In this document: in pieces, positions 2,369 through 40,241 of the stretch | How positions within the stretch are numbered: the stretch's first letter is position 1 | Layout of the letters: each line of letters opens with the position of its first letter | Assembly (NCBI GenBank): GCA_021295715.1 | Contig: JAGWBV010000016.1 | Coordinates: forward strand, 364 to 41,878 | Direction of reading: 5' to 3' | DNA from: Candidatus Poribacteria bacterium | GTDB lineage: Bacteria > Poribacteria > WGA-4E > WGA-3G | Length of the DNA stretch: 41,515 nt | The notes under the pieces: generated by a model | What the model was told of the DNA's origin: nothing | Databases searched by the model: none | What the model saw: the letters and a program-made list of their open reading frames with translations, nothing else | Made by a program: the position numbers and the translations under genes

Positions 2369-2408
2369 GGGCAGGAGACCCCATCCTTTAGGTTGGGGAG
2401 GAATGCCC
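2369..2408. repeat. Structured hairpin at the 3' end of the IsrB-like element
   Basis: Nested stems are visible: outer GGGCA (2369-2373) with TGCCC (2404-2408), inner CCCCATCC (2379-2386) with GGTTGGGG (2391-2398, one mismatch) around a TTTA loop. The stop codon of the RuvC protein (2388-2390) lies in that loop. A C-rich/G-rich hairpin just behind the ORF is typical of the right end of IS200/IS605-related elements carrying TnpB, IscB or IsrB genes, so this probably marks the element boundary. Confidence 0.65.
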
Positions 2409-3377: not shown

Positions 3378-3400
3378 CCGTCGCTGACCTTCTTTAGATT

Positions 3401-4786: not shown

Positions 4787-7224
4787 AATTTCCCCTGAAT
4801 GACGCGAACAGGTTTTACACTGTCTACAAAGAAAAGGTTACGCCGGATTGGATGCGTTCTTTCATATAGCATCTCAAAGATGTCTCGCAACGCAGGCATC
4901 TTATCTCCTTGAATTTCTTCACACAAAGGCAACTGTTCCTCCAACAACGGTTGGAAAAAGTGCTTGTCTCCTTTGTGAAGATCCTCAGGTAGGTAAGACT
5001 CATAGACCAAACCATCAATAATTCGTTCAAAATACCCGAGCATCACGGCATCGCGAGCGTGTGCCAAATCCTTGCTATCTGTTGTTGGCTGCTGCTGGAG
5101 ATAGATCAGGTAATCAACGATTTTAGCAATTAGTGCTTTCTGTATTGACGTAAGGTCGGGAATCGGAATCTGTTGGATATATCCGCTCCGCGCCCGAAGA
5201 GGATCGATTGTTAATTGCTTCGATACCTGTGAATAAAACCACTCTACTGTGCGGGAATTGAGGAGCCCGCAGAGCCACTTTTCCTCGGTTGGGATAAGAT
5301 AGGCGGTTTTGTCATAATAATAGCCGGCTGTATCAACAGCAAAAGTCTGATGGTTATAGGTATTTGGACAGACCAGTTTCGGTTGTGCAAAACGCTCCAC
5401 ATCCCTAAGAGATACTTGAAGTTCATACCACTTCTGTTTGCCTTTTCTTTTTTCCAGGCTTTCGTTATGCTTTTCCAAATACTTCAGAATTGCTGGGTAG
5501 TCGTCTATCGCGATGCCGCGATGGGTGAAGATTAACCATTGCTGCGGTGTATCAACGTGCCAACGCCTTAAATCCCGCCCGTGCAAAAACGGCTTCAAAA
5601 TATCAGTGGATGAGGGATGTGCCGCAATGAGTTCACTCCGTGTTGTTTTGTTTACCACAAATACCTCAGTGGGTGCCGTGTTGATTCCGAAGGCAGGCTT
5701 TGCCTTGATGTACTCGCTTAATGGTGGCCCAACATTGCGAAGCTGCTCACGTAAATTCACCACATTCGAGGATTTAATAGGATTGCCATCGGCATCCAAC
5801 ACTTTTTGTGTCTTCGGGTAACGGGTCCGCCGACGTTGTGTCAGCAGAAGCGCGAGGTCCTCTGGCAATTTGACGAGGCGATTCTTCTGATACGTCTCAA
5901 CATCTTTGTAGGAATTGTGGAACACTGCAATGATGTCAACGCCCAACCGTTTAGCGGTTATGAAATCAGTTTTGGCTTTGTCCCATTCTTTTTGACATAA
6001 CCACGCTTCCCCACGAAGGTAGTACGCTCGAGCCAACTGAGAGTCCTGTTGAATCGCTGTGGTATAGTCCTCAATAGCCTTATCAAAATCACCTTTGTTG
6101 AAATAGACTATACCGCGATTGTTATAGGCACCAGCAAATTTCGGATTTAGCTCTATTGCTTTGTTATAGTCTTTTATAGCTTTTTCAAACTCGCCTTTCT
6201 CAGCGTAGTTAACCCCGCGTACACTGTATGCCTCGGCATAACCGGGTTTTAGTTGTATAGCTTTGGTAAAATCTTTTATGGCGTTGGCATAGTCATTTTT
6301 GACAGTATAAGCACGGCCTCGATTGTGATATACCTCAGCAAGATTGGGTTTTAGTTTTATCGCTTTGGTAAAGTCGCTGATAGCGTTATCAACCTCGCCC
6401 TTGTCAACGTAAGCATTACCCCGATTGTTATATGCCTCGGCGAAATCTGTTTTGTGTTCTATTGCTTCTGTATAGTCCCTGATAGCATTATCAAAATCAC
6501 CCTTTTTAGTATAGACAATGCCCCGGCCGTAATAAGGGGTGGCATAATCTGGTTTGAGTTGTACCGCCTTACTAAAGTCCGCAATGGCGTTATCAAGATC
6601 ACCTTTGCGACCATAAATAATGCCCCTATTGTTATAGACTCTCGCGTTAAGCGGGTTAAGGTTGATAGCATTGGAGTACGCACCAATTGCCATATCCAGT
6701 TGTCCAAGCAGAAACAGAATATTCCCATGTTGAAAATCCATTTCAGCATGTAGTTCCTTTTCAGAAATTTTGGATGAGGAAGCTGCTTGAATCTGAATCT
6801 TTTTAAGGACTCTTCGAATACCATCTACTACATTTTGCCAACCATCACTTTCAGGTTGCCATTTGTTAATCGGATTTCCTTTATCAGGAAGAGCTTGGAA
6901 ATCACTCAGTTGATGATTTAGCCAATCGCAGTTCTCAAGGATAATTGGAATCACCCTTATCTCTGCATTCAGTGCCGCTGCTAATTCCTTATTACAGTTT
7001 TCAGATTCAAGACTATAAGTGGAAGTGAGATAGAGGAGAAGGTCAGAGTCAGCAAGGTTATTGAAAATAGCGTCACGCCATTTGTCCCCTGGCAGAATTT
7101 CATTGTCATGCCAGATGCTTATTATGCCTTCACGTTTCAGCAAGGCAAGACCTGTTATCAATTTGTCCTTTTCTGCCGTATTTTTATGTGAGTAGGTAAT
7201 AAAAACTTTTAACTGTTGGCTCAC
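4783..7224 (-). CDS. TIR-TPR-TaqI-type target-recognition-domain fusion protein
   Basis: 813 residues from a GTG start with a strong GGGGAGGAAAC ribosome binding site. Residues 1-140 are a TIR domain (KVFITYSHK; IWHDNEILPGDKW; SENCNKELAAAL with Glu80 in the position of the NAD-hydrolase catalytic Glu). Residues 163-430 hold eight TPR repeats of 34 residues (pattern AYNNRGIVYFNKGDFDKAIEDYTTAI, shown here in part). Residues about 490-695 match the C-terminal specificity domain of type IIG enzymes (GPPLSEYIK, ILKPFLHGRDLRRW, KWYELQ, LLNSRTVEWF, GYIQQIPIPD), followed by the helical tail usual for such enzymes. No methyltransferase motifs (DPACGSG, NPPY) are present. It lies 205 bp downstream of a complete type IIG gene on the same strand and is coupled to an ATPase. 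Likely role (inference): a DNA-site-sensing effector that depletes NAD on infection. It could instead be a fusion that captured a restriction-enzyme remnant. Confidence 0.85.
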   Translation of the reverse strand: MSQQLKVFITYSHKNTAEKDKLITGLALLKREGIISIWHDNEILPGDKWRDAIFNNLADSDLLLYLTSTYSLESENCNKELAAALNAEIRVIPIILENCDWLNHQLSDFQALPDKGNPINKWQPESDGWQNVVDGIRRVLKKIQIQAASSSKISEKELHAEMDFQHGNILFLLGQLDMAIGAYSNAINLNPLNARVYNNRGIIYGRKGDLDNAIADFSKAVQLKPDYATPYYGRGIVYTKKGDFDNAIRDYTEAIEHKTDFAEAYNNRGNAYVDKGEVDNAISDFTKAIKLKPNLAEVYHNRGRAYTVKNDYANAIKDFTKAIQLKPGYAEAYSVRGVNYAEKGEFEKAIKDYNKAIELNPKFAGAYNNRGIVYFNKGDFDKAIEDYTTAIQQDSQLARAYYLRGEAWLCQKEWDKAKTDFITAKRLGVDIIAVFHNSYKDVETYQKNRLVKLPEDLALLLTQRRRTRYPKTQKVLDADGNPIKSSNVVNLREQLRNVGPPLSEYIKAKPAFGINTAPTEVFVVNKTTRSELIAAHPSSTDILKPFLHGRDLRRWHVDTPQQWLIFTHRGIAIDDYPAILKYLEKHNESLEKRKGKQKWYELQVSLRDVERFAQPKLVCPNTYNHQTFAVDTAGYYYDKTAYLIPTEEKWLCGLLNSRTVEWFYSQVSKQLTIDPLRARSGYIQQIPIPDLTSIQKALIAKIVDYLIYLQQQPTTDSKDLAHARDAVMLGYFERIIDGLVYESYLPEDLHKGDKHFFQPLLEEQLPLCEEIQGDKMPALRDIFEMLYERTHPIRRNLFFVDSVKPVRVIQGKL

Positions 7225-7328
7225 AGTTTCCTCCCCTCCACAATACGAATTTCTTGAGGTAATAATAACATGCCAGACGAATGGATGTCAACCGAATTTG
7301 GGGATATGATACCCACTTAATTTCAAGT

Positions 7329-7412
7329 GTCACATACCGCTCCGCTGGAGCGGAAGATTGGAAACGCCACGCGGGCTATAGACATATCGCTCCGCTGGAA
7401 CGAGGATGTGAC
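7329..7412. repeat. 84-bp MITE-like element with two internal hairpins
   Basis: Outer inverted repeat GTCACAT (7329-7335) / ATGTGAC (7406-7412). Inside it are two near-identical hairpins: CCGCTCC-GCT-GGAGCGG (7337-7353, perfect) and CGCTCC-GCT-GGAACG (7388-7402, one mismatch). The two ends are therefore mirror images over about 25 bp with some mismatches. It occupies the gap between the type IIG gene and the TIR fusion gene; it could be a mobile repeat, a terminator or an attenuator between the two. The remainder of the gap (7225-7328, 7413-7429) shows only the SD of the TIR gene. Confidence 0.6.
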
Positions 7413-7429
7413 GCATTTACCTATTATCC

Positions 7430-10400
7430 CTATTTTCCCTTCAAACTTCTCGCCTTCCGCAACCGTGATTCCACAAGATTCACAACCGCTTCATACACTC
7501 CATCCCGTTCGCCTTGCGTGAGATTGAGGGTGTCGAAAATAATCGCATCAAGCGCGCGACGGTGATCTGAGGGATCAAGCATTTCCCAAGCAACTGATGT
7601 GAATATTTCTTTATTCTCAAATGCAAAGGTTTTTGGGTCTAAACAAAGCAACTCCGAAACTTCATAGGTCTGAATCTTCAATAAACCACCACCGAAATTA
7701 GAACGTCCCGCTATATTTACCATCAGTTGAAACAATGACGAATTCAAGGAGGCACATAAAGGTAATATTAAATCCGAATCCGTGTGGATTTCCTGAAAAT
7801 TGTCGCTTGTATAACAACCGTCTTGGGCGTACAGAGTTCTTGCAGTTGAGGAAATCAGATAGTTAAAAGAAAGCAATGGAATTTGACGTTCTCCCAAATC
7901 CCACCAGCGTGTGCGGACTCGGCAACTCGGTCTCCGATGATATCCCTGTGACTCGCCCCATTCAATATACGCCAACACCGCAGTGCCGGATAACGCGGCT
8001 TTATCTGCATGGCACATAAACAACTTGAACTGTAACTGACTCGGATCCACACGGATGCTTTTGCATTCCCGTGGACTCTTGATGATAGGCTTCAGAAATT
8101 CATCCTCAATGCCCCATGCCTGAACCCGTTCCGCATCAAGATAGAAGAACTCATTGGCACCTGTTGTGAAACCACGCCGTACCTCCGCAACGTCACTGAG
8201 ACGGACCAGTTTATCTTTCCCTTTCTCCAGAATTGTCCAATAAATGCCAGGGGCGCGTAGATATTTCCCACCCCACTTGTCCCCGGTGTATCTGTTATCG
8301 CGCATGCCCGCTTGTGCCAACTCAGGATAGGTAGGCATTCGCTCGCGACGGTTTTCCACGTTTGGATCGCCTATGAATGTCTTGAAGGTAAGAAAACGGA
8401 TGTGGGAATCCGCATCGGGAGTCCCGTTGTAGAGAATACTGACAATGGTGTTGATGTCCGCACTCTCAAACTCTCGTTCCGCCTCGCTGTAGCAGATAAC
8501 GGCACCCGCGGTGTTGTCCAATAGATACTTCTGTAATGGCGCACCGTAGTTCACATCCAGCCAACTGTTGGAACAGATAAAGGTATGTGTGCCGTTTGCG
8601 TTGAGCAGTTGAAGCCCGCGTTCATAAAAGTAGACGTAGAGGTCTGCAGCTCCCGTGTAACAGGTGTATCGTTTTTTCAATATGGGTTTGAGTGCCTTGA
8701 TTTTCTCTTGACGGACATAAGGCGGATTGCCAATTACGACATCAAATCCGTCTGTGATGCCGAACATCCACTCGGGGTCAAAGAAGTCTGCGGTGGCGTT
8801 CTGGTCGTAAGGATCCCAGTTGGCAATTTTTTCCGTCGTCTCACTCGGAAACCCGTCCGACTGCAACAACGCGCTAATCTCGGCGCGGAGTTCCGTGTCG
8901 CGGTTGCGATACCGGTCTTTGGTACGGGGTGTTCGTGCGGTGAAGTGTCTACGGCGCACCTCCTCCAATGCCTTCTCTTTGGTGTCTATCTCTGGATTGC
9001 GGAGGAGAAGTTGGGTGGGTTTCTCCACATCGAGGAGTGAATTCGCCGCGACGAACTTCGTCTCCAGATTCGGCAACGGACGCACGCCTCGGTTTTCGCG
9101 TGTGTTATCAACCTCCTGCTCTACAATCAGGGAAATGAAGAATCGGAGTTTAGCGATCTGGGTCGCAATCGGTTGGATGTCTACCCCGTAGATGCAGTTC
9201 TCTATCAGGTAAAGTTTTCTGCCGTAGTCGAGTGCGTTGCGTTCAAATGCCTCGTTGATGCTCTCAATTTCGCCCTCTAATTCGTCAATCGTGCTTTCAC
9301 GGATAACGCTGTCGTCAATCTTTTCTGCTGTCGCGATGGTCTTTTCGACTCTGTCAATCTGGCGTTGCCGCCATTGGGCGTTGCGGGGATCGAGTTTACC
9401 GAGCAAAAAGACGAGTTTGTGGAGGATCCCCATCGGGAAGGCACCAGAGCCGCACGCGGGATCGAGGATCTTGAGCGTGTCTATGGCGTTAATGAGATGT
9501 TCCACTTCGGTATCGGTGAATTGATGGGGTTCATCGTTGTAGGACAGGAGGTGACGGAGTTTGGTCTCTGACGGGCAATGAATGGTTTCCCTACTACAAA
9601 CCGCGTTTTTGAGATAGGCGATGAGGGATTCGTCTACCATGTAGTTGACGATCTCACGGGGTGTGTAGAACGACCCGGTCTGTTTACGCGCAGTCGTGCC
9701 GGTTTCGGGGTTATACGCGGCGAGTAGATTCTCAAATACCTGACCGAGTAGCTCTGGATCCAGGGCGACCTCTTCTTCTATCGGTGTGTTCTCAGCAATC
9801 GTGAACTTGTAGCGATTGAGGATGTGGATTAAACCCCGAACGGTATACCGGCTGTTTTTTGTGTCGTAGACGGCGTTGAGATTTACGGCTTGCGGTTCGG
9901 AGAAGAAGAGCTCGTTTGGGACATGGAGCGGGTTATCCTCCCTGTCAGAGAAACCATCTACACGCAAGATCATTTTAGCATCGTCTGGTGCAGGTTTGTC
10001 GAGACATTCAAACAAGCCTCCGTTGAGGAACGGAATCGTCTCAAACAAGCGAAGTGCTACATCTGGATCAGTGAAATAACGTTTGTAGCGATAGAGCGAT
10101 GTGATATTATAGTGTTGTCGCCCCTCGCCGCGGAACTTGCGGGTATTCGGTTTTTCAGGCGTGTTCATCTCTTGATTCAATGTTGCGAAGAACAGGTTCT
10201 GGAGGATCGCCTTGTAATAGGTGCTTTCCTGGGTTTCAACACTCGTGAGTAGCTCTGCAATGTCGGTTTCGTCAAACAGAACGTTCGGCACGAGGTTTTG
10301 CTCCTTGAGAAACCAGACGAAGATGAGCCGTGTTATCAGGCGGATGATGCAGGTGGCGTTGTGGACATCGCGGTTAGAAACCGCTCCCACCGATTCACCG

Positions 10401-11149
10401 GCATCGGGTGGAAACGCCACTTTTCCAACTGCCCAGAAATACCAATCGGCAATCTCTTTGAAGAAGCGTCTGTTGAGTTCGGAGGTATCCAGCGTTTTCT
10501 GCCACGCCTGATGCAGCTCAAGGAAATTCGTAAACCCGTGCTGCTGATAGAGTCCATCCAGCGACAACTCCGCCAAGATGTCAAGGTGTGCGCGATGCGG
10601 ATTCACAACATCAATATCCTTGATGAGCGTTACTTTCTCCAAGACATCACGATCGCTATCACGCTGACTCGGTCTACGGTTGATAATCGCGAAGGTGAGC
10701 GTGCGTCCATGCTGGAAAATCAGCAGTGCGGGCATTGTATAGAGTTTGTTAATCTCTCGCGTGATAGTGGCGAGTGCCGTGCGGGAATAGGTATCCGCCT
10801 TGAGTTTAATGGCGAGAAAGAGATAGGAATAATAGATGGTCTCATCAACGCCTCGGTTTTCATGGAAGATTATGGTTTCTTGTGTATGCTGTCTGATTTC
10901 ATCAGCCGTGAGTTGGAAGAGGAAGTCTACGGTCTGCCATTCATGGAGCAGTGTGTTCTCTCGGTTCATCCGTCTGTGAGTGTCAAAGTCTTCGAGGAAT
11001 GCCTTGACGGTATTGGACGAGCGGTTGAGGGTGCGCTGACTTTCGTATCCTAACAGTTTGAGGAGGTGGGTTGCGTTTTCGGCGAGGTTTCCGTCCGTGA
11101 AGTTGCTGAGTCCTCGCTGAATTTCCATTTTAAGAGGTGTTTCGTGCAT
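7430..11149 (-). CDS. Type IIG (Eco57I-like) restriction-modification protein
   Basis: 1239 residues, the length expected of a single-chain restriction-methylation enzyme. An N-terminal part (1-300), probably nuclease-related, includes a conserved block YYSYLFLAIKLKADTYSRTA; I cannot assign the PD-(D/E)XK residues with certainty. The methyltransferase begins with TGSFYTPREIVNYMV (491-505), motif I ILDPACGSGAF (561-571), YGVDIQPIA (654-662) and catalytic motif IV VVIGNPPYV (804-812), typical of N6-adenine gamma-class enzymes. A TaqI-like specificity domain follows (RRGFTTGANEFFYL, about 1010 onward, to near 1190). It would methylate and cut DNA at one target sequence. It is transcribed toward the TIR-TPR-TRD gene. 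The gene is complete and uninterrupted, so it is probably active. The recognition site cannot be read from sequence. Confidence 0.88.
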   Translation of the reverse strand: MHETPLKMEIQRGLSNFTDGNLAENATHLLKLLGYESQRTLNRSSNTVKAFLEDFDTHRRMNRENTLLHEWQTVDFLFQLTADEIRQHTQETIIFHENRGVDETIYYSYLFLAIKLKADTYSRTALATITREINKLYTMPALLIFQHGRTLTFAIINRRPSQRDSDRDVLEKVTLIKDIDVVNPHRAHLDILAELSLDGLYQQHGFTNFLELHQAWQKTLDTSELNRRFFKEIADWYFWAVGKVAFPPDAGESVGAVSNRDVHNATCIIRLITRLIFVWFLKEQNLVPNVLFDETDIAELLTSVETQESTYYKAILQNLFFATLNQEMNTPEKPNTRKFRGEGRQHYNITSLYRYKRYFTDPDVALRLFETIPFLNGGLFECLDKPAPDDAKMILRVDGFSDREDNPLHVPNELFFSEPQAVNLNAVYDTKNSRYTVRGLIHILNRYKFTIAENTPIEEEVALDPELLGQVFENLLAAYNPETGTTARKQTGSFYTPREIVNYMVDESLIAYLKNAVCSRETIHCPSETKLRHLLSYNDEPHQFTDTEVEHLINAIDTLKILDPACGSGAFPMGILHKLVFLLGKLDPRNAQWRQRQIDRVEKTIATAEKIDDSVIRESTIDELEGEIESINEAFERNALDYGRKLYLIENCIYGVDIQPIATQIAKLRFFISLIVEQEVDNTRENRGVRPLPNLETKFVAANSLLDVEKPTQLLLRNPEIDTKEKALEEVRRRHFTARTPRTKDRYRNRDTELRAEISALLQSDGFPSETTEKIANWDPYDQNATADFFDPEWMFGITDGFDVVIGNPPYVRQEKIKALKPILKKRYTCYTGAADLYVYFYERGLQLLNANGTHTFICSNSWLDVNYGAPLQKYLLDNTAGAVICYSEAEREFESADINTIVSILYNGTPDADSHIRFLTFKTFIGDPNVENRRERMPTYPELAQAGMRDNRYTGDKWGGKYLRAPGIYWTILEKGKDKLVRLSDVAEVRRGFTTGANEFFYLDAERVQAWGIEDEFLKPIIKSPRECKSIRVDPSQLQFKLFMCHADKAALSGTAVLAYIEWGESQGYHRRPSCRVRTRWWDLGERQIPLLSFNYLISSTARTLYAQDGCYTSDNFQEIHTDSDLILPLCASLNSSLFQLMVNIAGRSNFGGGLLKIQTYEVSELLCLDPKTFAFENKEIFTSVAWEMLDPSDHRRALDAIIFDTLNLTQGERDGVYEAVVNLVESRLRKARSLKGK

Positions 11150-18541: not shown

Positions 18542-18798
18542 ATGCTATTATGCTTTGAATGTATCGTAGCATTATATTATACAGAGATATTTCGTTTTCG
18601 CCTGTGATATGCATGGCAGAGAAGTCGGATCACTTTAAAATCCAAATTCGCGGATTGCTCCTACTGGACGGCATCCTTGGTTCGCAAAACGGGGCTGCGC
18701 GGAAACGAATCAAACCGTTCTACTGTTCAAGCAATTTACAAATTAGAATATTGTCGAAATATAAACAGATTCCAATGGTTCAGAGAGGAGTAGACGTT

Positions 18799-20676
18799 GT
18801 GAAAAAGATTTTGCTTTGCGCGTTTGTGATATTCTGCTTGGCTGCATATCAGAGTCACGCGCAGATTGAGTGGGATGCTGAAAAGTTTATGCCGTTGTCG
18901 GAAGTGAAACGGGGCATGACAGGGAAAGGCTACACAGTATTTTCCGGGACAACGGTGGAAGAATTTGAATGTGAAGTTGTGAGTGTCGAATACAACTTTA
19001 TCCCGGGGTGGCATGTCGTATGGATGAAGGGTTTGAGTGACAACTTCAAGCGGACGGGTGTCGCAGGCGGAATGAGTGGGAGTCCAATATACATTGACGG
19101 ACGACTCATGGGTGCGCTTTCCCTCGGTTATTTTAATCAGCGGGAACATGCGAATGGTTTTGGTGTCACGCCGATTGAATTGATGGTTAAGGTGGCACAG
19201 CGTGGCATGGAGCCTAATTTAAGTTACGAAGGTGCTCAACTTTTTAATCTCAATTCAGCTGCTGCACAGGAATATGGATTGGATGCAGGGCAGTCTTTGC
19301 TTCGCGATGGTCAGGTTGCACAGGGACCGCGTGCTTTCGATGAAATGTGGCGTGACAGTATCGCCGATATGCCTTCCCAAGTGAGGTCCGCACGGTTATC
19401 CATTCCTGTCACACTTCCAACGCTTAATTCGGAGGTAATACGGTTTATCAAACCGGTTTTTGATAAACTCAATTTTACCCCCGTTCAAGCGGCAGGCGGT
19501 GGAGGTCCCGTTAAGGAATCACCGGTTGAGGAAGGACAGATAATCGGGACGGAATATGTCCGTGGAGACGTTTCCTTTTTTGGGTATGGAACTATCACTC
19601 ACGTAGAGGGTAATGAACTGCTTGCTTATGGGCACGCTGCGTCTGCAGAAGGTAACGTCAATATTCCGATTTCTGGCGGATATGTGCATTTTATCCTTCC
19701 GAGCCGTTCCCGTTCCTCCAAAATAGCTTCTGCGACGCAGCCCATCGGGACCTTGGTGCAAGACCGGGATCCTGCTATTGCTGGCATCATCGGAAAACAC
19801 CCGAGTTATATTCCTGTAAATGTCAATGTGCAGACTGCTGATGGTAAGCGGCATCAGAAGGCTTACGAAGTGATTCGACATCGCAGTTTCTCTCCAGTTT
19901 ATACAGGCATGGGGGCGTGGATGCTCATGGACACACTTGAGTTTTACCTGGGAGACTACACGCTCAATATGGAAGCGACTATCACTCTCAAAGAACATCC
20001 GAACCTCAAAACACGTGAGTTAGTCTATAAGAATATCTATTCTTCCAGAGGTTCACCCGGGTTTGGGATCATGCAGACGCTCTTGATGCCAATGTTTCAG
20101 TTAGCAACCAACCAGTATACGAGTGTTCCGGTCGAAAATGTCACCATTGATGTGAGCATAGAGGATAAACGGAGAACGGCGAGGATTCAAAGTCTTCAAA
20201 TGGATAAACTCCGCTATCGACCTGGGGATACTGTTGAGGTAGAAATTACTTTGCAACCCTATTTTGAAAACCCGATAGTGCAAACAGGGACAATCACGAT
20301 TCCTAAAGATGTTCCAGATGGGCTTGTGACGCTCCTCGCCACCAATGCCAGTTTTCACGAAGCTTGGCAGCGTAACCGGGCCCCTCTGAACTTTCGGCAT
20401 AAAAATATCAATCAATTAGTCGAATTATTGCAACGAGGCGAAAATAACTCGGATATCATTATGGAACTCTTTGTGCCTGAACCGGGACTCACCGTTCAGG
20501 GTGAAGAATTCGCACACCTGCCGCCTTCAGTCATGTCAGTCATGAATACCGCAAAGCAGATCGGCAATAGCGGATACACTATGGGCACCACACTACACAT
20601 TGATAAAGTGTCAACCGACTATGTGGTCTATGGAAGCGGCATGATTCGGCTCGTTGTGGATAGGAACGCAGAGTGA
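18799..20676 (+). CDS. SpoIVB-type (S55) serine peptidase, secreted
   Basis: I prefer the GTG at 18799: it follows a GAGAGGAG ribosome binding site and begins a classical signal peptide (KKILLCAFVIFCLAAYQSHAQ). The reading frame is open upstream to 18559 but those 80 residues look non-coding. The mature protein has the S55 fold: EVKRGMTGKGYTVFSG, then FIPGWHVVWMK and GVAGGMSGSPIYIDGRLMGALSLG, with Ser93 in GMSGSP as the likely nucleophile. SpoIVB itself cleaves a sporulation checkpoint protein; here no sporulation genes are seen, so the role is likely in envelope protein processing. The remaining 400 residues are beta-rich (TVEVEITLQPYF) and hold no recognisable PDZ domain. Followed by a repeat and a secreted propeller gene. 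Confidence 0.8.
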   Translation: MKKILLCAFVIFCLAAYQSHAQIEWDAEKFMPLSEVKRGMTGKGYTVFSGTTVEEFECEVVSVEYNFIPGWHVVWMKGLSDNFKRTGVAGGMSGSPIYIDGRLMGALSLGYFNQREHANGFGVTPIELMVKVAQRGMEPNLSYEGAQLFNLNSAAAQEYGLDAGQSLLRDGQVAQGPRAFDEMWRDSIADMPSQVRSARLSIPVTLPTLNSEVIRFIKPVFDKLNFTPVQAAGGGGPVKESPVEEGQIIGTEYVRGDVSFFGYGTITHVEGNELLAYGHAASAEGNVNIPISGGYVHFILPSRSRSSKIASATQPIGTLVQDRDPAIAGIIGKHPSYIPVNVNVQTADGKRHQKAYEVIRHRSFSPVYTGMGAWMLMDTLEFYLGDYTLNMEATITLKEHPNLKTRELVYKNIYSSRGSPGFGIMQTLLMPMFQLATNQYTSVPVENVTIDVSIEDKRRTARIQSLQMDKLRYRPGDTVEVEITLQPYFENPIVQTGTITIPKDVPDGLVTLLATNASFHEAWQRNRAPLNFRHKNINQLVELLQRGENNSDIIMELFVPEPGLTVQGEEFAHLPPSVMSVMNTAKQIGNSGYTMGTTLHIDKVSTDYVVYGSGMIRLVVDRNAE

Positions 20677-28856: not shown

Positions 28857-29102
28857 ATTTCGGAGTCTGTCTTGTATTAAGCATTCAGGTCTGCTGTTAG
28901 GAATTCCGCCCACAGATTTGCAGCAGCCAGCCTTAGGCAAAATTGGAGAGACTCGCATAGCAGCTGCAATTCAAATAATAATAATACGGTTTTGGCGAAA
29001 CGCATGGGTTCCCAAAACTTCCTGTTAGAAAGTGTTAAAACCGACACTAGGCGTCTGCCAAGAAGCACGTCTACAACTGTTGGAACAGACAAGGAGATGT
29101 TA

Positions 29103-30494
29103 ATGATTCACGGGAAAGTTATGTCGATTGTTTTGTCAAAGTTTAAAGGAATACCCCATTCAAGTTTCCGAAGCTTGCTCTTAAAATTCATCCTCGCTGT
29201 TCAATTTGCAGTCGTTCTTTGTGTCAATGCGCAGGAACCTGCCACCGAAATTGACTTAACCCAGCCTTTGACCCTTGAACAATGTATCCAGGTAGGTTTG
29301 GAAAAATCGACGAGTATGCGAAATGCGCGTTTGAATCTTGCGATACAGGAACTTCGGGTAAAAACTGCGCGTGCTGATTATTTTCCACGTGTTTTTTCAA
29401 CCGGTGCTTACGATTTCTCTGATCGAATCGACTTCGGCTTTGAGCCTGAAAACTACAATTTAGGATTGGGGGCACAATACACAATTTGGGACAATGGTCA
29501 ACGCGAGGGCGGGTTCGCGCAGGCAAAAGAATCCCTGAGCGCCACTGTGAGCCGCAATGAGGGGATCAAACAAAGTTTAATTTTGCAAATCACTGAAGCT
29601 TACTATGATGTCCTTCAATTCCAAGCGTTGGTTGAAGTGAGTGAGCAAAATTTGGCAAGGGCGCAAGAGAACACGCAACGGACTAAGGATTTTGTAGAGG
29701 CAGGTTCGCTCATTCCAGCGGATGTAGCGACGGCTGAGGTGCGAGAGGGAAATAATAGATTAGCACTGCTAAATAACCAAAATTCACTTCAAGTTGCCAA
29801 AGCCAGGTTACCGCGGCTCCTCGGTTTAGATCCGGGTGTTTTAATTACTGTTGCGGCGGATGAAGCGTTTCAGTTATATCAACAACGCGGCACCATTGAA
29901 AGATTACAAATACCGGTTGAGGAAGCTATCCAGATAGCACTTGACAATCGTCCGGAATTTAAAGAAACGGAATCGCAATTGAGATCACAGGAATGGTCCT
30001 TAACGCTCGCGAAATTACAGCGTTGGCCCCGTCTGAATGCCGATGTTGACTACAACGTTAACCTCGACGATTACCTCCGCGAACGCGAGAATTTCTCTGA
30101 CTTCCGGAGTTGGAGCGCAGGTGTGTCCCTTAATTTTACGTTTTTTGACGGTGGTATTTTGGGAAATCGGGTCAAAGAGTTAGCTATGCAATTAGAGCAA
30201 ACCCGTGAAAACGCAAGCGACTTGGAACGTTCCGTCGCGTTAGATGTCCGGCAATCGTATCTCAATCTCAAGCGCAGTGAAGCCTCTGTTGATATCGCCA
30301 AAACACTGGTTGTCAATGCCCGGCTCAGTTTAGAGGTTATTCAAGGGCGTTTTGATGTTGACAAAGCCATCCTGCTTGAACTCCTTGATGCCCAAACCAG
30401 TTATGCGCAAGCACTATCAGATGAAGTGAATACTTTCTACGATTACAAGATCTCACAAACCCGTTTACAAGATGCCATGGGAGTATTACAGTAA
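29103..30494 (+). CDS. TolC-family outer-membrane efflux channel
   Basis: Start set at the ATG 29103, six bases after AAGGAG (29091-29096); the frame is open further upstream. 463 residues with a signal peptide (LLLKFILAVQFAVVLCVNAQ), then LTLEQCIQVGLEKSTSMRNARLNLAIQE, the first OEP repeat, and a second repeat from about residue 265 (EEAIQIALDNRPEFKETESQLRSQE). Long helices and the YNVNLDDYL beta segment fit the trimeric channel-tunnel. It ends three bases before the adaptor gene. Exports substrates handed over by the adaptor and ABC pump. Confidence 0.88.
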   Translation: MIHGKVMSIVLSKFKGIPHSSFRSLLLKFILAVQFAVVLCVNAQEPATEIDLTQPLTLEQCIQVGLEKSTSMRNARLNLAIQELRVKTARADYFPRVFSTGAYDFSDRIDFGFEPENYNLGLGAQYTIWDNGQREGGFAQAKESLSATVSRNEGIKQSLILQITEAYYDVLQFQALVEVSEQNLARAQENTQRTKDFVEAGSLIPADVATAEVREGNNRLALLNNQNSLQVAKARLPRLLGLDPGVLITVAADEAFQLYQQRGTIERLQIPVEEAIQIALDNRPEFKETESQLRSQEWSLTLAKLQRWPRLNADVDYNVNLDDYLRERENFSDFRSWSAGVSLNFTFFDGGILGNRVKELAMQLEQTRENASDLERSVALDVRQSYLNLKRSEASVDIAKTLVVNARLSLEVIQGRFDVDKAILLELLDAQTSYAQALSDEVNTFYDYKISQTRLQDAMGVLQ

Positions 30495-30496
30495 CC

Positions 30497-32470
30497 ATGA
30501 AAGATCGAAAAAAATGGATTATCATCGGAGTCGTCGCCTTGGTTGTTATCGCTGTTGGCGCAATTGGTGCGACTCGGATGGACTTCAGTTTCGGTCAAAA
30601 TAAGAAGGAAACTGAGGTAAAACAGGAAATTGTGCGTCGCGGTGAATTCATCGTTCGCGTCCGTGAGTCTGGCAATCTGCGTTCCTTCCTTGAAGTGGAT
30701 GTCCGCTCGAACGTGGAAGGCGAGATCGTTGAAATTTTCGTTGATGAGGGAGACGAGGTCAAAATAGGCGATCGTTTGCTCCGAATTGATGATGAGCAAA
30801 TTCTGGAACAAAGGAAACAAGCGGAAGCGAATCGTGATGCCCAAAAAGCCCAACTCCAACGGGCAGAACTCCAAATTCAAATTACTGAAAAACAGGAAGA
30901 AAGTGGTCTTGCGCAAGCACGCAACTCCGTCGCTGTGGCACAGGCGACTTTGGATTCATTTGTTGCAACGACGCAGCAACGAATTACTGAAGCAGAAACA
31001 CAAGTAGCGACGACACAAATTGACCTGAATCGAGATAAGATTGGCTTAAAGCAGGCTGAGATCGCATTATCACAAGCAGGACTCATGTTTGATCGGGCGG
31101 AAACGAGTGTTGAATCCGCAAAGGTGGCACTCGAAACAGCGGCGTCCGAGTACAATCGAAACAAAGAACTGTTTGATAAGAAGTTAGTTTCAAAGCGGAC
31201 GTTAGAGGAATCACAAAACCAACTCGCCGGGGCGCGATCGCAGTATGAAAACGCACAGAAAGAGGTGGAGTCCCAAAAGGAAACCGTTAAGTCCCAGGAA
31301 GAAAATATCAATGTCCGGCAAGAAGCAATTCAGAGCCGCGAATCTACCTTGGAACTCAATAAAAAGAATGTTCTGACCCTTAAAGAATCGGAAGAAGCCC
31401 GGAAAAAGCAATTGGAAGCGGAATTGGAGAACGCTCGCACACGGCTCCGTCAATTGGAAGAAACGACTGAAGAAGAAAAGGAATTAACCCGTCATGCAAG
31501 AGTCGGCGCGGAGGCGAGTTTGCTCCAAGCACAAAGTCAGCTTGAATCACAACAAGAACGCTACGAATGGACGACAGTTATAGCTCCTATAGCGGGGACG
31601 GTTACGCGCCTCACTGTTGAGGAGGGAGAAATTATCACCTCGGGACGTTCCGCTTTTTCACGTGGCGATGCAATTATGCGCATTGCCGACCTCAATCAGA
31701 TGATTGTGAGGACGCAAATAAATCAGGTAGAAATCGGGAAGGTTAAAGAGGAACAACGCGCCGAAATCAGCGTTGATAGTTATCCTGGACAGGTCTTTCC
31801 GGGAAGGGTTAGCGAGATTTCACCGAGTGCGACCCCCCGTGGTCCCCAGAATCAGAGTTCCGTCATCACTTTTGAGGTAGATGTAGAGGTTATCGGTTCT
31901 CCATCAGAACTCCTGCCCGGTATGTCTGCGGATGTTGACATTATTGTGTTTGAAGAATCCGATATCCTTCAACTGCCAATACCGGCTGTGCTGAGTCCAA
32001 AGGTTTTTACTGTAAGAGCAAAGGTCAATTCCACGGATCTTGGACAATTTCAGGAAGGTCAGGAACTCAAAATCCGGAATTTGATTGGTAACGAGTTCGA
32101 TGGAAATGTCGGCAAGATTGATCCAGAGGAAACGCGTGGTAATCTTGAAATCTTGCTCGAAGGTGCGCAGAAAGGCTTGAAGAACGGTCCGACTGAGATC
32201 TCTATTGTTATTTCTGAACAGAATGTACTCTCCGATATAGAAGCGGAAGTGAGTAGCGAGCGGCAGTATTTTGTTATGTTAGATACAGGTGAACCCAAAA
32301 AAGATAAAAAAGAGCGAAAAGGCGTCAAAACTCACATTACAATCGGACAGCGTAATAACACCCACTTTCAAATCACTGGTGGTTTGAAGGAGGGAGACCG
32401 CGTTTTTGTGCCTTCTATGCAAGAATTGACAGAAGGACAAGGAAATGATTCAGAAGAAGAAGGCAAATAA
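30497..32470 (+). CDS. HlyD/MacA-type periplasmic adaptor with extended coiled coil
   Basis: 657 residues, much longer than the usual 350-450. A membrane anchor at the N-terminus (WIIIGVVALVVIAVGAIGA) precedes half of the lipoyl domain (VDVRSNVEGEIVEIFVDEGDEVKIG), a hairpin of very long heptad-rich helices at about 95-340 (QKAQLQRAELQIQITEKQEE to LEENARTRLRQ), the second lipoyl half (TVIAPIAGTVTRLTVEEGEII), a beta-barrel (MIVRTQINQVEIG) and a membrane-proximal part with a second barrel-like region near 500-560. Starts two bases after the TolC stop. It should bridge an inner-membrane ABC transporter to the TolC channel; the ATPase gene follows, but no permease. Confidence 0.85.
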   Translation: MKDRKKWIIIGVVALVVIAVGAIGATRMDFSFGQNKKETEVKQEIVRRGEFIVRVRESGNLRSFLEVDVRSNVEGEIVEIFVDEGDEVKIGDRLLRIDDEQILEQRKQAEANRDAQKAQLQRAELQIQITEKQEESGLAQARNSVAVAQATLDSFVATTQQRITEAETQVATTQIDLNRDKIGLKQAEIALSQAGLMFDRAETSVESAKVALETAASEYNRNKELFDKKLVSKRTLEESQNQLAGARSQYENAQKEVESQKETVKSQEENINVRQEAIQSRESTLELNKKNVLTLKESEEARKKQLEAELENARTRLRQLEETTEEEKELTRHARVGAEASLLQAQSQLESQQERYEWTTVIAPIAGTVTRLTVEEGEIITSGRSAFSRGDAIMRIADLNQMIVRTQINQVEIGKVKEEQRAEISVDSYPGQVFPGRVSEISPSATPRGPQNQSSVITFEVDVEVIGSPSELLPGMSADVDIIVFEESDILQLPIPAVLSPKVFTVRAKVNSTDLGQFQEGQELKIRNLIGNEFDGNVGKIDPEETRGNLEILLEGAQKGLKNGPTEISIVISEQNVLSDIEAEVSSERQYFVMLDTGEPKKDKKERKGVKTHITIGQRNNTHFQITGGLKEGDRVFVPSMQELTEGQGNDSEEEGK

Positions 32471-32477
32471 ATCAAAC

Positions 32478-32596
32478 TTATAGTAAAGTTTAGAATTAAT
32501 TAGACACTCTAAAGAGGCGAGGGTACAATCCTCGCCAGCGGCGGGGAGGGTTGTTTCGCTGCGCAACTGTCTACATATTTTCCGACTTTACTATAA
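32478..32596. repeat. 119-bp MITE with perfect 12-bp terminal inverted repeats
   Basis: TTATAGTAAAGT (32478-32489) is the exact reverse complement of ACTTTACTATAA (32585-32596). Inside, GGCGAGG (32516-32522) pairs with CCTCGCC (32530-32536). TA at both ends suggests insertion at TA, as in IS630/Tc1-type elements (inference). It fills almost the whole gap between adaptor and ABC ATPase genes. Confidence 0.7.
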
Positions 32597-32661
32597 ACGT
32601 GCTAAATTGTATTTCTTGTTCATGCTTACCTTCATAAAATCAAGGTTAAGGAGGAAACGTT

Positions 32662-33366
32662 GTGTTAATAGATGTGCGAGATTTGACGAAAATCTATCAA
32701 ATGGGTGATGTGCAGGTACATGCCTTACGGGGTGTGTCCTTCGAGATCACACAAGGTGAATTCATTGCGATTATGGGACCATCCGGCTCTGGAAAATCAA
32801 CCATGATGGATATTCTGGGGTGTCTTGCAACGCCGACATCGGGGCAGTACTACCTTGAAGGTGAAGAGGTCGGCAAGCTTTCCGATAATCGCCTGGCTGA
32901 CATTCGGAATAAAAAGATCGGTTTTGTGTTTCAGTCGTTTAACCTGCTCCCACGAACCAGTGCTCTCAACAATGTTGAATTACCGCTGATTTACTCGGGT
33001 TTGGGTAGAAAAGAACGCAAACGGCGCGCATTTGAATCCCTGGAGGCAGTCGGTTTAGCAGACCGCGTCGATCACAAGTCGACCGAGCTGTCTGGTGGTC
33101 AAATCCAGCGTGTGGCCATTGCCCGTGCTTTAGTCAATAGACCTTCAATGATCTTCGCTGATGAGCCGACAGGTAACTTGGATACCCGTTCTGGCACCGA
33201 AATTATGGCGATTTTCAACCGTTTGAATGATGAAGGCAATACCATCATCATGGTGACACATGAAGCTGAAGTCGCTGAACACGCCAAGCGCGTTCTCCAC
33301 ATTCGTGACGGTTTAATCGAGCGAGATGTCAGACGAAATGGCGATAATGGCGGGGATACTGGCTAA
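32662..33366 (+). CDS. MacB/LolD-type ABC transporter ATPase
   Basis: 234 residues from a GTG start (AAGGAGG at 32648-32654). Walker [11 protein letters not shown]-loop [21 protein letters not shown], signature [17 protein letters not shown], Walker [14 protein letters not shown]-loop [12 protein letters not shown]. These are the marks of the LolD/MacB/FtsE group (FNLL and EPTGNLD). It should drive a MacB-like permease, but the next gene is a GHMP-type enzyme, so the permease must be elsewhere or lost. The TolC, adaptor and ATPase order supports an export role. Confidence 0.92.
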
Positions 33367-33399: not shown

Positions 33400-34368
33400 A
33401 TGCACCACGTCAAAATTACCACTCCATCCCGCTTACACTTTTCTCTGCTTGATCTGAATGGTGTGTTGGGACGAGTTGATGGAGGGTTCGGTCTCGCAAT
33501 TGCTAAGCCCAATTTTCAAATTATTGCTGAGCGGGCAACTGGCATTCATCTACCATCTTCCGTATATCGCGATCGGACTGCTGCAGTACTTAAGCGACTT
33601 CAAGAAACCTATCCCTTTCCCGGCATTAAATTAACATTTCAATCTGAAATCCCGATGCACTGCGGATTCGGGTCTGGAACGCAACTTTCTCTCGGTGTTG
33701 CCCAGGCAGTCAATCTGCTATATGAACTTGGATTAGATGTGCAAGCATTGGCAAAAGTCGTCGGACGCGGTGGCACTTCAGGTATCGGTATAGCGGCATT
33801 CCAAACAGGCGGTTTCATTGTTGATGGCGGACATCGTTTTCCAGAACAGAAGGCATCGTTCCTGCCCTCCTCTGCACTTGGAGATATTCCGCCACCTCCT
33901 GTTTTGCTCCGTTATTCGTTTCCAGAAATGCCATTACTCATTGTCATGCCGAATTGTTCACGAATTTATGGTGACACAGAGATCGAATTGTTTCAGACCC
34001 TCTGTCCACAACCAGAATGGGTGGCACAGAAGCTTTCACACATCCTATTGATGCGAGTACTTCCTGCCTTGGTTGAAGGAGATATGCGCACTTTTGGCAA
34101 AGCCTTAAATCAAATTCAAACGTTTGGATGGAAAAAAGTGGAAATTGACGCACAAGGCACTGAACTCCAATTGACGCTTGACTTCTTACGCGACAGTGGA
34201 GCTTTCGGTGCGGGTGTTAGCAGTTGGGGCTCGGCAATTTGCGTGGTGGGTGAAGATATTGATAGGTTAAAGCGAGGCACCGAAGCATTCCTAAAAACAC
34301 TTCCAGATGGTGGTTCATGTTTTGTTACGCGGGCGAACAACTTGGGCGCGCGCGTTGTGCCGAGTTAA
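33400..34368 (+). CDS. GHMP-family protein like beta-ribofuranosylaminobenzene 5'-phosphate synthase
   Basis: 322 residues. The N-terminus VKITTPSRLHFSLLDLNGVLGRVDGGFGLAI and the glycine-rich IPMHCGFGSGTQLSLGVAQAVN (about 84-105) are the GHMP substrate and phosphate-binding motifs; GRGGTSGIGIAAFQTGGFIVDGGH and FGAGVSSWGSAI match the beta-RFAP synthase (MptG/MptN) group rather than sugar kinases. In archaea and C1-metabolising bacteria beta-RFAP synthase joins p-hydroxybenzoate or pABA to PRPP in tetrahydromethanopterin synthesis. It lies 33 bp after the ABC ATPase gene. No other methanopterin gene is in the window, so a different ligand is possible. Confidence 0.7.
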   Translation: MHHVKITTPSRLHFSLLDLNGVLGRVDGGFGLAIAKPNFQIIAERATGIHLPSSVYRDRTAAVLKRLQETYPFPGIKLTFQSEIPMHCGFGSGTQLSLGVAQAVNLLYELGLDVQALAKVVGRGGTSGIGIAAFQTGGFIVDGGHRFPEQKASFLPSSALGDIPPPPVLLRYSFPEMPLLIVMPNCSRIYGDTEIELFQTLCPQPEWVAQKLSHILLMRVLPALVEGDMRTFGKALNQIQTFGWKKVEIDAQGTELQLTLDFLRDSGAFGAGVSSWGSAICVVGEDIDRLKRGTEAFLKTLPDGGSCFVTRANNLGARVVPS

Positions 34369-34376
34369 AAATAGAA

Positions 34377-34402
34377 ACGGGCGGATGTTACCATCCGCCC
34401 GT
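34377..34402. terminator. Terminator hairpin between convergent genes
   Basis: ACGGGCGGATG (34377-34387) pairs perfectly with CATCCGCCCGT (34392-34402) around TTAC. On the minus strand it is followed by TTCTATTTTTA, so it suits nfuA; on the plus strand the T content is weaker. Probably bidirectional between the GHMP gene and nfuA. Confidence 0.8.
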
Positions 34403-36616: not shown

Positions 36617-37111
36617 CTATGTAGAATGTCCGATTAAGAGCACCGCTGTTGGGAGTGAAGTTTCTGCCGCCTGTTCAAATGCTCTTGCGATGCACGGAAC
36701 ATCCGCGTCTGTTTCAAGCATTTCATAAGGGAGATTCCACGCTTTCAACGTCGGTTCAAGGAAAGTTGCTACGGAATCAATCCATTGTCCATTTTTATCT
36801 CGATTGTGATAACCACGATATCCAATGAATACCACCACTGGCACTTGCATGTTGACAACGGTGCCTCGGATCGCATCGCCTGATTCCAAGAACCCGGTAT
36901 TTTGGATGATGATCACAGGCTTTTTGCCACCAACGTATAACCCTGATGCAATGGCAAATGCTTCACCTTCACGGGTGACCGTAATGACTTCGATATCAGG
37001 CTCTGATCGTAAGCGTTCATAAATCCGGGCACTGCCGTTATCTGGAACGCCTACAGCGTGGGTGATCCCCTGTTTTTTTAGTTCATTTACTATCTTCTGT
37101 GCTGATGCCAA
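36617..37111 (-). CDS. ComD-like TPP-binding (Pyr domain) subunit
   Basis: 164 residues, one Pyr domain of the thiamine-diphosphate enzyme fold: GITHAVGVPDNGSARIYERL, then VTREGEAFAIASGLYVGGKKPVIIIQNTGF with the cofactor-activating Glu near residue 48-50, and MQVPVVVFIGYRGYHNRDKNGQW. It is closest to the alpha subunit of sulfopyruvate decarboxylase (ComD) or the first half of phosphonopyruvate decarboxylase. These need a PP-domain partner (ComE or a C-terminal half), which does not lie on either side. Substrate therefore open. It is downstream of acs on the same strand with a 270-bp gap. Confidence 0.78.
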   Translation of the reverse strand: MASAQKIVNELKKQGITHAVGVPDNGSARIYERLRSEPDIEVITVTREGEAFAIASGLYVGGKKPVIIIQNTGFLESGDAIRGTVVNMQVPVVVFIGYRGYHNRDKNGQWIDSVATFLEPTLKAWNLPYEMLETDADVPCIARAFEQAAETSLPTAVLLIGHST

Positions 37112-39465: not shown

Positions 39466-39828
39466 TTGCATAGCAGGTATGGAACGATTGTCAATAGGGA
39501 CGGACAACCAATAGAAATACAATACTACCGCGGTCCAAATGGTAGACAACCTTTCATTGAATGGTTTGAATCCATCCGAGATAGAAAGACGCGAAACAGA
39601 ATTGACAAACGGCTTGCGAAACTTGAAGATGGCAATTTTGGTGATTGCCGATCTGTCGGTGGAGGTGTCTTTGAATTGCGTCTGCACTTTGGACCAGGAT
39701 ATCGCATCTATTTCCGTCAAATTGAAAATATACTCGTCCTTCTGCTTTGTGGTGGAGACAAAGCATCACAGCAGCGGGATATTGAACTCGCGAAGGCCTA
39801 TTGGCGAGAATATGAGGAGACACATTAA
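39466..39828 (+). CDS. RelE/HigB-like toxin of a type II toxin-antitoxin system
   Basis: 120 residues from a TTG start; no ATG is available before the conserved part and no good ribosome binding site is visible, so the start is uncertain. EIQYYRGPNGRQPFIEWFESIRDRKTRNRIDKRLAKLEDGNFGDCRSVGGGVFELRLHFGPGYRIYFR (in part) is the phage-derived Gp49/HigB-like addiction-module pattern; basic residues near the ends of the strands would cut ribosome-bound mRNA. LLCGGDKASQQRDIELAKAYW is the usual C-terminus. Toxin precedes antitoxin, as in higBA. Confidence 0.85.
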   Translation: MHSRYGTIVNRDGQPIEIQYYRGPNGRQPFIEWFESIRDRKTRNRIDKRLAKLEDGNFGDCRSVGGGVFELRLHFGPGYRIYFRQIENILVLLLCGGDKASQQRDIELAKAYWREYEETH

Positions 39829-40241
39829 TGAGAGAAATGGGGAACTGGCGCGAGTATCAAATTAGAAGACTTGCTAATGATCGAGAGGAAGCAATTGACT
39901 ATCTCCAATTGACATTGGAGGAATACCGTGTTGACAGTGATTTGTCTTTTTTTCTGAAGGAACTTCGGGTCTTTATAGCATCACAAGGTGGGGTTTCCGA
40001 ACTTTCCAAACGCACCAGTATTGATGCTGAAACACTCTTGGATGCTCTCTCTAACGCGGATGCCCCGCTATTCGACATACTCAACACTATATTAAATGCC
40101 TTTGGGTGTCAGTTGCCAACTGCCAATCCTTTTAAGCGCACACCCCTACATCGGCTAATTGACTGGATACATCCGGCCCGAAGGACTCAAAGAGCAGCTT
40201 ACAGACTAACTTCAAATAGTGTCGTAACATTTTCGGATTAG
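39828..40241 (+). CDS. HigA-like antitoxin
   Basis: 137 residues; its ATG shares one base with the toxin stop (TAATG). ANDREEAIDYLQLTLEEYRVDSDLSFFLKELRVFIASQGGVSELSKRTSIDAETLLDALS (in part) matches the addiction-module antidote family with an HTH: GGVSELSKRTSI-DAETLLDALS is the helix-turn-helix. It has about 35 extra basic residues at the C-terminus (HPARRTQRAAYRLTSN) beyond the usual ~100-residue length. Expected to bind the toxin and repress the operon. Its stop overlaps that of the convergent gene by four bases. Confidence 0.82.
   Translation: MREMGNWREYQIRRLANDREEAIDYLQLTLEEYRVDSDLSFFLKELRVFIASQGGVSELSKRTSIDAETLLDALSNADAPLFDILNTILNAFGCQLPTANPFKRTPLHRLIDWIHPARRTQRAAYRLTSNSVVTFSD

Follow-up and report, generated by a model that had tools for sequence, protein, structure and literature searches.

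An archaeal-type RFAP synthase, close to a core gene of Poribacteria, that may serve a pathway other than methanopterin synthesis

Within a 41,515-nucleotide stretch of a Candidatus Poribacteria genome (GenBank assembly GCA_021295715.1, contig JAGWBV010000016.1, positions 364 to 41,878 of the forward strand; hereafter the window), a gene predicted to encode a beta-RFAP-synthase-type C-riboside synthase (RFAPS) comes last in a same-strand run that starts with exporter genes:

28992-30494, plus strand: TolC-family outer-membrane channel, listed with a TTG start (translation may in fact begin further inside)
30497-32470, plus strand: HlyD/RND-type periplasmic adaptor (membrane-fusion protein), identified by profiles
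32662-33366, plus strand: MacB/LolD-type ABC ATPase, identified by profiles, 33 bp upstream of RFAPS
33400-34368, plus strand: predicted RFAPS, a beta-RFAP-synthase-type C-riboside synthase of 322 aa with an ATG start and a GHMP fold, identified by open reading frame (ORF) and profiles
34377-34402, plus strand (found on both strands): strong hairpin terminator after RFAPS, -25 kcal/mol, z -7.2

An earlier note on this DNA had called the ORF at 33400-34368, which is indeed complete, and had described it as following a TolC/adaptor/ABC set, in agreement with the run listed above. The genes downstream of RFAPS (NfuA-like and sigma-70) lie on the opposite strand.

The assignment of the protein to the beta-RFAP-synthase-type GHMP proteins, made in the same note, was borne out by family scores and by residues of archaeal RFAP synthases. 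RFAPS scored 279.9 bits against the NCBIfam beta-RFAP synthase family TIGR00144 (cut-off 113.5; E 2.7e-83) and 324.4 bits against the MptG equivalog NF040726, 3.6 bits below the cut-off of 328, and Pfam identified GHMP_kinases_N and GHMP_kinases_C in the protein and nothing else. When the sequence was searched against solved structures, three entries of the formycin C-nucleoside synthase ForT came out best, followed by eight GHMP kinase sequences with far weaker E-values. For the AlphaFold2 model of RFAPS (mean pLDDT 91.9; 14 sequences, its own and fetched ones), the top three PDB matches were the ForT entries 6YQQ, 8AOZ and 8AP0 (TMq 0.87–0.91, 27% identity), with mevalonate and homoserine kinases ranking below them. 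A GHMP sugar or mevalonate kinase is ruled out by this ranking of the predicted fold together with the scores of the kinase families, which reached 15–31 bits compared to 280–324 bits for RFAPS. We read the gene as one that encodes a putative archaeal-type RFAP synthase.

Within the phylum Poribacteria, RFAPS comes close to being a core gene. It was detected above cut-off in 80 of 84 poribacterial genomes (54/55 among the good ones), and given this spread, the gene isn't there by chance. The best 39 named matches all came from Candidatus Poribacteria (44–91% identity), and identity dropped with kinship, from 91% within the genus to 41–56% in the deeper lineages f5–f10; contamination or recent transfer is ruled out by this tracking of kinship together with the 80/84 genomes. 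In Chloroflexota, the other phylum sampled, RFAPS is rare, with a match at E <= 1e-40 in 4 of 400 genomes, including the Caldilineaceae genome used as centre. Archaeal matches were 35–47% identical to the window protein. One Methanosarcinaceae genome (L116, 6897-8963) carries two tandem RFAPS genes, one of them 47% identical to it.

In a tree of 68 RFAPS rows, the 20 poribacterial sequences grouped together, save for a two-row branch made up of ForT and the sequence of locus L076. This branch, with a length of 2.48, was placed inside the poribacterial group by two unstarred forks (89/95 and 86/91). As it is long and its forks are unstarred, its position is uncertain, and the tree leaves the relation of the window RFAPS to ForT less sure. 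The sequences of Caldilineaceae, one Chloroflexi and two Deltaproteobacteria formed one clade (100/99), three copies from bacterial C1 clusters branched with Halobellus (99/99), and a constraint joining all 29 bacterial rows of the poribacterial RFAPS kind was not rejected (p-AU 0.314).

At the active site, the pABA-linked residues D18 and R25, as well as R11, H87 and S127 of the PRPP site, were kept in 20/20 poribacterial rows. D18 and R25 correspond to D19 and R26 of MTH0830, described as pABA-site residues in the accessible part of PMC6787355, and roles of the PRPP-site residues in the family are given for ForT in the accessible part of PMC8183095. The latter also disputes a direct contact of R26 with the aromatic substrate, so that the role of this residue is less sure than its conservation. 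D27, H145, K245 and E248 were in the archaeal state in 20/20 poribacterial rows, while the three C1-cluster enzymes differ there.

With archaeal MptG of group 1 (MTH0830, MJ1427, AF2089), the window RFAPS shares the family score, the full-length alignment, the D and R of the pABA site, the PRPP loop and the archaeal residue states, at 35–47% identity for the archaeal matches; it differs in following an exporter, in coming from a phylum in which Mch, Fae and Ftr were absent from the genomes searched, and in its score 3.6 bits below the NF040726 cut-off. The methylotroph-type copies (on plasmids of Phyllobacterium, Azospirillum and Thiodictyon) belong to the same family but to a separate branch, are clustered with mch, fae and an H4MPT dehydrogenase gene (and fhcD in 2/3 of the stretches shown), and differ from the window RFAPS at D27, T126, H145, K245 and E248. 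ForT, in turn, has R19, L24, R33, H99, T138, S139 and E211, all with equivalents in the window RFAPS by alignment, whereas at D18, D27, Q95, G130, A133 and E248 the poribacterial rows differ from one or both ForT-type sequences. In its aligned active-site residues, the window RFAPS is of the archaeal and not of the methylotroph type. The second ForT-grouping gene (L076) is located on plasmid MesoLjLa4 of Mesorhizobium sp. L-2-11, beside purH, a SAICAR-synthetase gene and a PRAI-family gene, a neighbourhood suggestive of a C-nucleoside cluster in this rhizobium.

To judge the exporter neighbourhood, we compared 41 fetched loci, the window included, out of the 80 genomes with an RFAPS match; 30 of them belong to f1–f4, one order of sponge symbionts, and 11 stretches to the deeper lineages f5–f10. 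The exporter ATPase was encoded no more than two genes upstream of RFAPS in 27 of the 30 f1–f4 loci (24 by ORF call and three more, L061, L064 and L071, by tblastn), with overlapping ends in at least four of these by ORF call (G018, G021, G023, G025); among the remaining loci it lay further off in G014 and G016 and was not seen in G013. The 11 f5–f10 stretches, which span 3.1–20 kb (four of them are shorter than 4 kb), yielded no relative of the ATPase. Given the presence of the ATPase in 27/30 loci of one order compared to 0/11 in deeper lineages, RFAPS appears to predate its association with the exporter, and the exporter is therefore weak evidence for function. The exporter neighbourhood is a late arrangement and does not define what RFAPS does. 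The earlier note's idea that the enzyme modifies an exported molecule is weakened accordingly: the proximity holds within the order and was not seen in the deeper stretches.

Among the components of a MacAB-TolC system, the TolC channel, the adaptor and the ATPase are present at the locus, and no FtsX/MacB permease was found between or beside their genes, or anywhere else among the window's 29 gene calls. The permease-less run (28992-33366) was kept in most of the f1 and f3 loci fetched. Two candidate permeases were ruled out, namely the gene that five relatives have between ATPase and RFAPS, which is Peptidase_S55-like (judged on the G028 copy), and a 983-aa gene of G014, which encodes a WD40 protein. 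The window has its own Peptidase_S55-like gene at 18559-20676, a relative of the one that sits between ATPase and RFAPS in G028, G058, G061, G063 and G066. The gap between adaptor and ATPase, which ranged from -56 to 252 bp across 22 genomes, measures 191 bp in the window (32471-32661) and contains a GC-rich hairpin with, by eye, matching TTATAGTAAAG and CTTTACTATAA ends; a repeat search reported no inverted repeats in 32400-32700.

Several other features of the window were recorded. Genes at 2388-11149 on the minus strand encode an RRXRR protein, an SMC-like ATPase, a TIR-TPR protein with a TaqI-type C-terminal domain and an Eco57I-type methylase, a possible defence island. At 603-2360 (minus strand) lies a gene for a 586-aa protein with a match to the squalene-hopene-cyclase C-terminal domain (159.8 bits), and at 36617-37111 (minus strand) one for a stand-alone 164-aa TPP_enzyme_N protein, kept in f1 relatives, which is presumably the size of the alpha subunit of archaeal sulfopyruvate decarboxylase. 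A gene pair at 39466-40241 (plus strand) has weak Gp49-like and HI1420-type antidote matches, both below cut-offs, and is a possible toxin-antitoxin system. Rfam returned nothing at gathering scores for the window.

RFAP synthase is commonly used as a marker of methanopterin, and the earlier note had considered that the organism may use this C1 carrier. Such a use was not supported: none of the 81 poribacterial genomes searched, the window's own among them, had a match to Mch (PF02289), Fae (PF08714) or FTR (PF01913, covering FhcD/Ftr), in searches in which archaeal controls matched. Three of the four C1 genes that the note had proposed for a genome check (fae, mtdB, mch and fhcD), namely fae, mch and fhcD, were hence found neither in the window genome nor in the others of the 81, and the placement of the protein gave a split outcome, since it lies inside the RFAPS family while these enzymes are absent. 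None of 20 Poribacteria had DUF447 (PF04289), the sole bacterial match in that search being one of 20.8 bits, below cut-off, in the deltaproteobacterial genome of L121. For TIGR00284, 0 of 20 Poribacteria were over cut-off and three had weak matches of 20–25 bits, in a search in which controls in ordinary bacteria also match below cut-off; the three archaea tested were all above cut-off for both profiles. With Mch, Fae and FhcD/Ftr absent from 81 genomes and DUF447 and TIGR00284 missing where tested, methanopterin C1 metabolism is not supported, and as RFAPS is kept without the methanopterin enzymes looked for, it probably feeds a different, so far undescribed pathway. A likeness exists in the archaeon Haloferax volcanii, whose RFAPS homologue HVO_2628 occurs in an organism judged to be without methanopterin biosynthesis and is thought not to catalyse the RFAPS reaction, according to the accessible part of PMC8305020. 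A search by title and abstract start, with subscription journals mostly outside its reach, yielded no paper on a poribacterial RFAPS or a PRAI partner, and the accessible parts of PMC3505017, PMC6306507 and PMC2474590 contain nothing on poribacterial RFAPS.

A candidate for a second enzyme came from RFAPS loci in other bacteria, in which a divergent phosphoribosylanthranilate isomerase (PRAI), here named PRAI2, is linked with RFAPS. In Caldilineaceae, a PRAI-family gene follows RFAPS in 6/6 loci, and an FtsX-type-cluster gene lies upstream of RFAPS in all six, preceded by a LolD-type ATPase in four of them by ORF call (Pfam was run on the neighbours in L122 alone). In L119 (Chloroflexi), L120 and L121 (both Deltaproteobacteria), RFAPS is found with genes for a PRAI, a zinc-dependent alcohol dehydrogenase (Zn-ADH) and an LsrF-like aldolase (3/3, in two gene orders). 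PRAI2 accompanied RFAPS in all nine of these loci, and no Mch was found in the nine genomes. Three further Chloroflexota RFAPS loci had no PRAI2, ADH or LsrF in the stretch, which extended up to 1.5 kb on either side, and in Poribacteria PRAI2 was beside RFAPS in none of the 41 loci fetched. We know of no link of HVO_2628 to PRAI2.

Elsewhere in the genome, PRAI2 was matched with at least 200 bits in 21 of the 23 Poribacteria examined; in the window genome (G000) it is in two pieces, and G012 has a fragment only. The copy of the window genome (contig C15, L231, 5017-5669) is split over two frames with about 10 residues missing between them, through either a real loss or an error of the draft assembly. 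A second, TrpF-like match (57–126 bits) was present in 13/23 genomes, 12 of which also have PRAI2 at 200 bits or more. The other ten, including all eight f1 genomes, have trpA and no full second PRAI (G028 has a 22-bit fragment). As PRAI2 is the only full PRAI in these ten trpA-bearing genomes, it may simply serve as TrpF there.

PRAI2 and TrpF (phosphoribosylanthranilate isomerase) belong to the same Pfam family and have C7, R35 and D128 in common, and R35, which in TrpF presumably faces the anthranilate carboxylate, is kept in PRAI2. In a tree of 46 rows made by a quick method, without G000 and G012 and with rows from 17 of the 20 TrpF loci fetched, the PRAI2 sequences of all groups lay on one side of a single branch and TrpF on the other (length 1.11, SH-aLRT 96). 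C7, R35 and D128 were kept in 28/28 PRAI2 rows, whereas other residues occupy positions 26, 28, 80, 100 and 106: position 80 is L in 23/28 PRAI2 rows and H in 17/17 TrpF rows, W100 occurs in 28/28 and 0/17, and P106 in 28/28 and 1/17, respectively. Read from the alignment, such a combination fits an isomerase that is still active and has an altered pocket. PRAI2 is further set apart from TrpF by its position with RFAPS in the nine bacterial loci.

The aldolase of the four-gene loci was likewise compared with known families. LsrF (3-hydroxy-5-phosphonooxypentane-2,4-dione thiolase) was the best NCBIfam match of the L119–L121 aldolase, with 262–264 bits in L119 and L121; unlike LsrF itself, the aldolase stays below the equivalog cut-off of 297 and lies beside RFAPS and PRAI2. 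A reading as a BagB/FevI-type aminohydroxybenzoate maker was weaker (122–131 bits versus 262–264), and no partner gene for it was seen in the scanned neighbours. No LsrF-like match was found in the six Caldilineaceae genomes searched, and an LsrF-like step in the window's organism is ruled out, with no match in 8/8 f1 genomes. In L160, L161, L162, L166 and L172, from two Poribacteria (G005, G016), two Methanoperedens-type genomes and G086, an LsrF-like aldolase gene adjoins a Zn-ADH gene with no RFAPS or PRAI2 in the stretch; the LsrF-like/Zn-ADH pair is a wider module.

On these grounds we tentatively favour, as quite possible though short of probable, that the archaeal-type RFAPS serves a separate small pathway that is not methanopterin synthesis and whose second enzyme would most likely be PRAI2. 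In the initial step, RFAPS would join PRPP and an acid of the 4-amino- or 4-hydroxybenzoate type into an aryl C-riboside 5-phosphate and release CO2 and PPi, the C-C bond being formed before decarboxylation, as argued for ForT in the accessible part of PMC9832568. The general reaction, in which PRPP and an aromatic acid would yield a C-riboside, CO2 and PPi, is well supported by family, residues and predicted fold, and the particular acid is our suggestion. TrpF acts on an N-riboside, opening its ring so that the carbonyl ends up at C2; in a C-riboside, an aryl group with an amino or hydroxy substituent in the para position could drive ring opening in a similar manner, so that PRAI2 might catalyse a quinone-methide-type 'carba-Amadori' reaction to 1-aryl-1-deoxyribulose 5-phosphate. 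An oxidoreductase dependent on Zn or flavin, joined in some lineages by an LsrF-like aldolase/thiolase, may then process the PRAI2 product, either by reduction to an aryl-deoxyribitol like that of methanopterin or, with the four-gene set, by oxidation at C4 to an aryl homologue of the LsrF substrate. In the latter form, the TDH/IolM-like ADH would oxidise the product to a 1-aryl-3-hydroxy-2,4-dione 5-phosphate, which the LsrF-like enzyme with CoA would cleave to arylacetyl-CoA and dihydroxyacetone phosphate. As the window's organism has no LsrF-like match, its version of the pathway could comprise no more than the RFAPS and PRAI2 steps and a redox step of some kind. We infer the cooperation of PRAI2 with RFAPS in Poribacteria, the PRAI2 reaction (by analogy with TrpF), the later steps and the end product. 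Against the proposal stand the separation of PRAI2 from RFAPS in all 41 poribacterial loci, the ten genomes with PRAI2 as the only full PRAI, the R35 that PRAI2 shares with TrpF, the split copy of the window genome, the lack of an LsrF-like match in the f1 and Caldilineaceae genomes searched, the LsrF-like/Zn-ADH pairs away from RFAPS and PRAI2, the three further Chloroflexota loci, the shortfall of 3.6 bits on NF040726 and the two unstarred forks that bring ForT in among the Poribacteria. The widest version, a new pathway of at least three bacterial groups in which RFAPS would make a C-riboside, PRAI2 would open it by a carbon Amadori reaction, a four-gene form would lead to arylacetyl-CoA and the whole would be near-core in Poribacteria, appears doubtful to us.

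Other explanations have to be weighed against this proposal. RFAPS could start the synthesis of a modified-pterin, methanopterin-like C1 carrier used with enzymes unrelated to Mch, Fae and Ftr, which would suit an archaeal-type enzyme with the tested RFAPS residues and a near-universal presence in the phylum that fits a cofactor gene more than a secondary metabolite. We consider this unlikely given that Mch, Fae and Ftr occur in none of the 81 genomes, that the 20 Poribacteria are without DUF447 and a full-score TIGR00284, and that no pterin gene was seen among the scanned RFAPS neighbours. Near-core status is, by the same token, unusual for a natural product, which is one of the points against RFAPS making a C-nucleoside-like or aryl-riboside compound exported by the adjacent TolC/adaptor/ATPase system. 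The nearby, partly overlapping ATPase genes of the sponge-symbiont order, the FtsX-type and LolD-type genes upstream in Caldilineaceae, the C-nucleoside synthase ForT as closest solved structure and the (unstarred) position of the ForT branch inside the poribacterial group would all fit export. However, no relative of the ATPase was found in 11/11 deeper stretches (four below 4 kb), no permease was found at the locus, ForT differs at the six positions named above, and, unlike at the Mesorhizobium ForT-like locus, Pfam found no duplicated purine genes or purine-type tailoring genes among the window's 29 called genes, and we hold the export of such a product to be improbable.

The neighbours of RFAPS in f5–f10 suggest yet another route. 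A nitroreductase gene lies directly downstream of RFAPS in 6/11 loci, followed in five of those six by a Zn-ADH gene, and a cyclase-family gene lies directly upstream in 3/11, with a further copy nearby in G003. If PRAI2 were only a TrpF and its linkage outside Poribacteria unrelated, poribacterial RFAPS together with cyclase, nitroreductase and Zn-ADH might open the ribose by reduction, in the way that the methanopterin side chain is formed, and PRAI2 being the only full PRAI of the f1 genomes would agree with this. PRAI2 nevertheless carries its own residue signature and coexists with a TrpF-like PRAI in 12/23 Poribacteria and in all six Caldilineaceae genomes searched, and we regard this combined reading as hardly probable. 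The preferred reading remains a small non-methanopterin pathway with PRAI2 as the candidate second enzyme.

We know of no enzyme that opens the C-riboside ring in methanopterin synthesis; work by White from 2011 reportedly deals with the 1-(4-aminophenyl)-1-deoxy-D-ribitol part. The linked PRAI2 offers a concrete, testable candidate for such a ring opening. That a phylum keeps a putative archaeal-type RFAPS without the C1 enzymes searched for shows that RFAP synthase can be a misleading marker of methanopterin, and suggests that aryl C-ribosides are put to another use. If the proposed pathway is true, its four-gene form would be a new way of lengthening a benzoate side chain, and its RFAPS part would be a near-core function of Poribacteria outside methanopterin.
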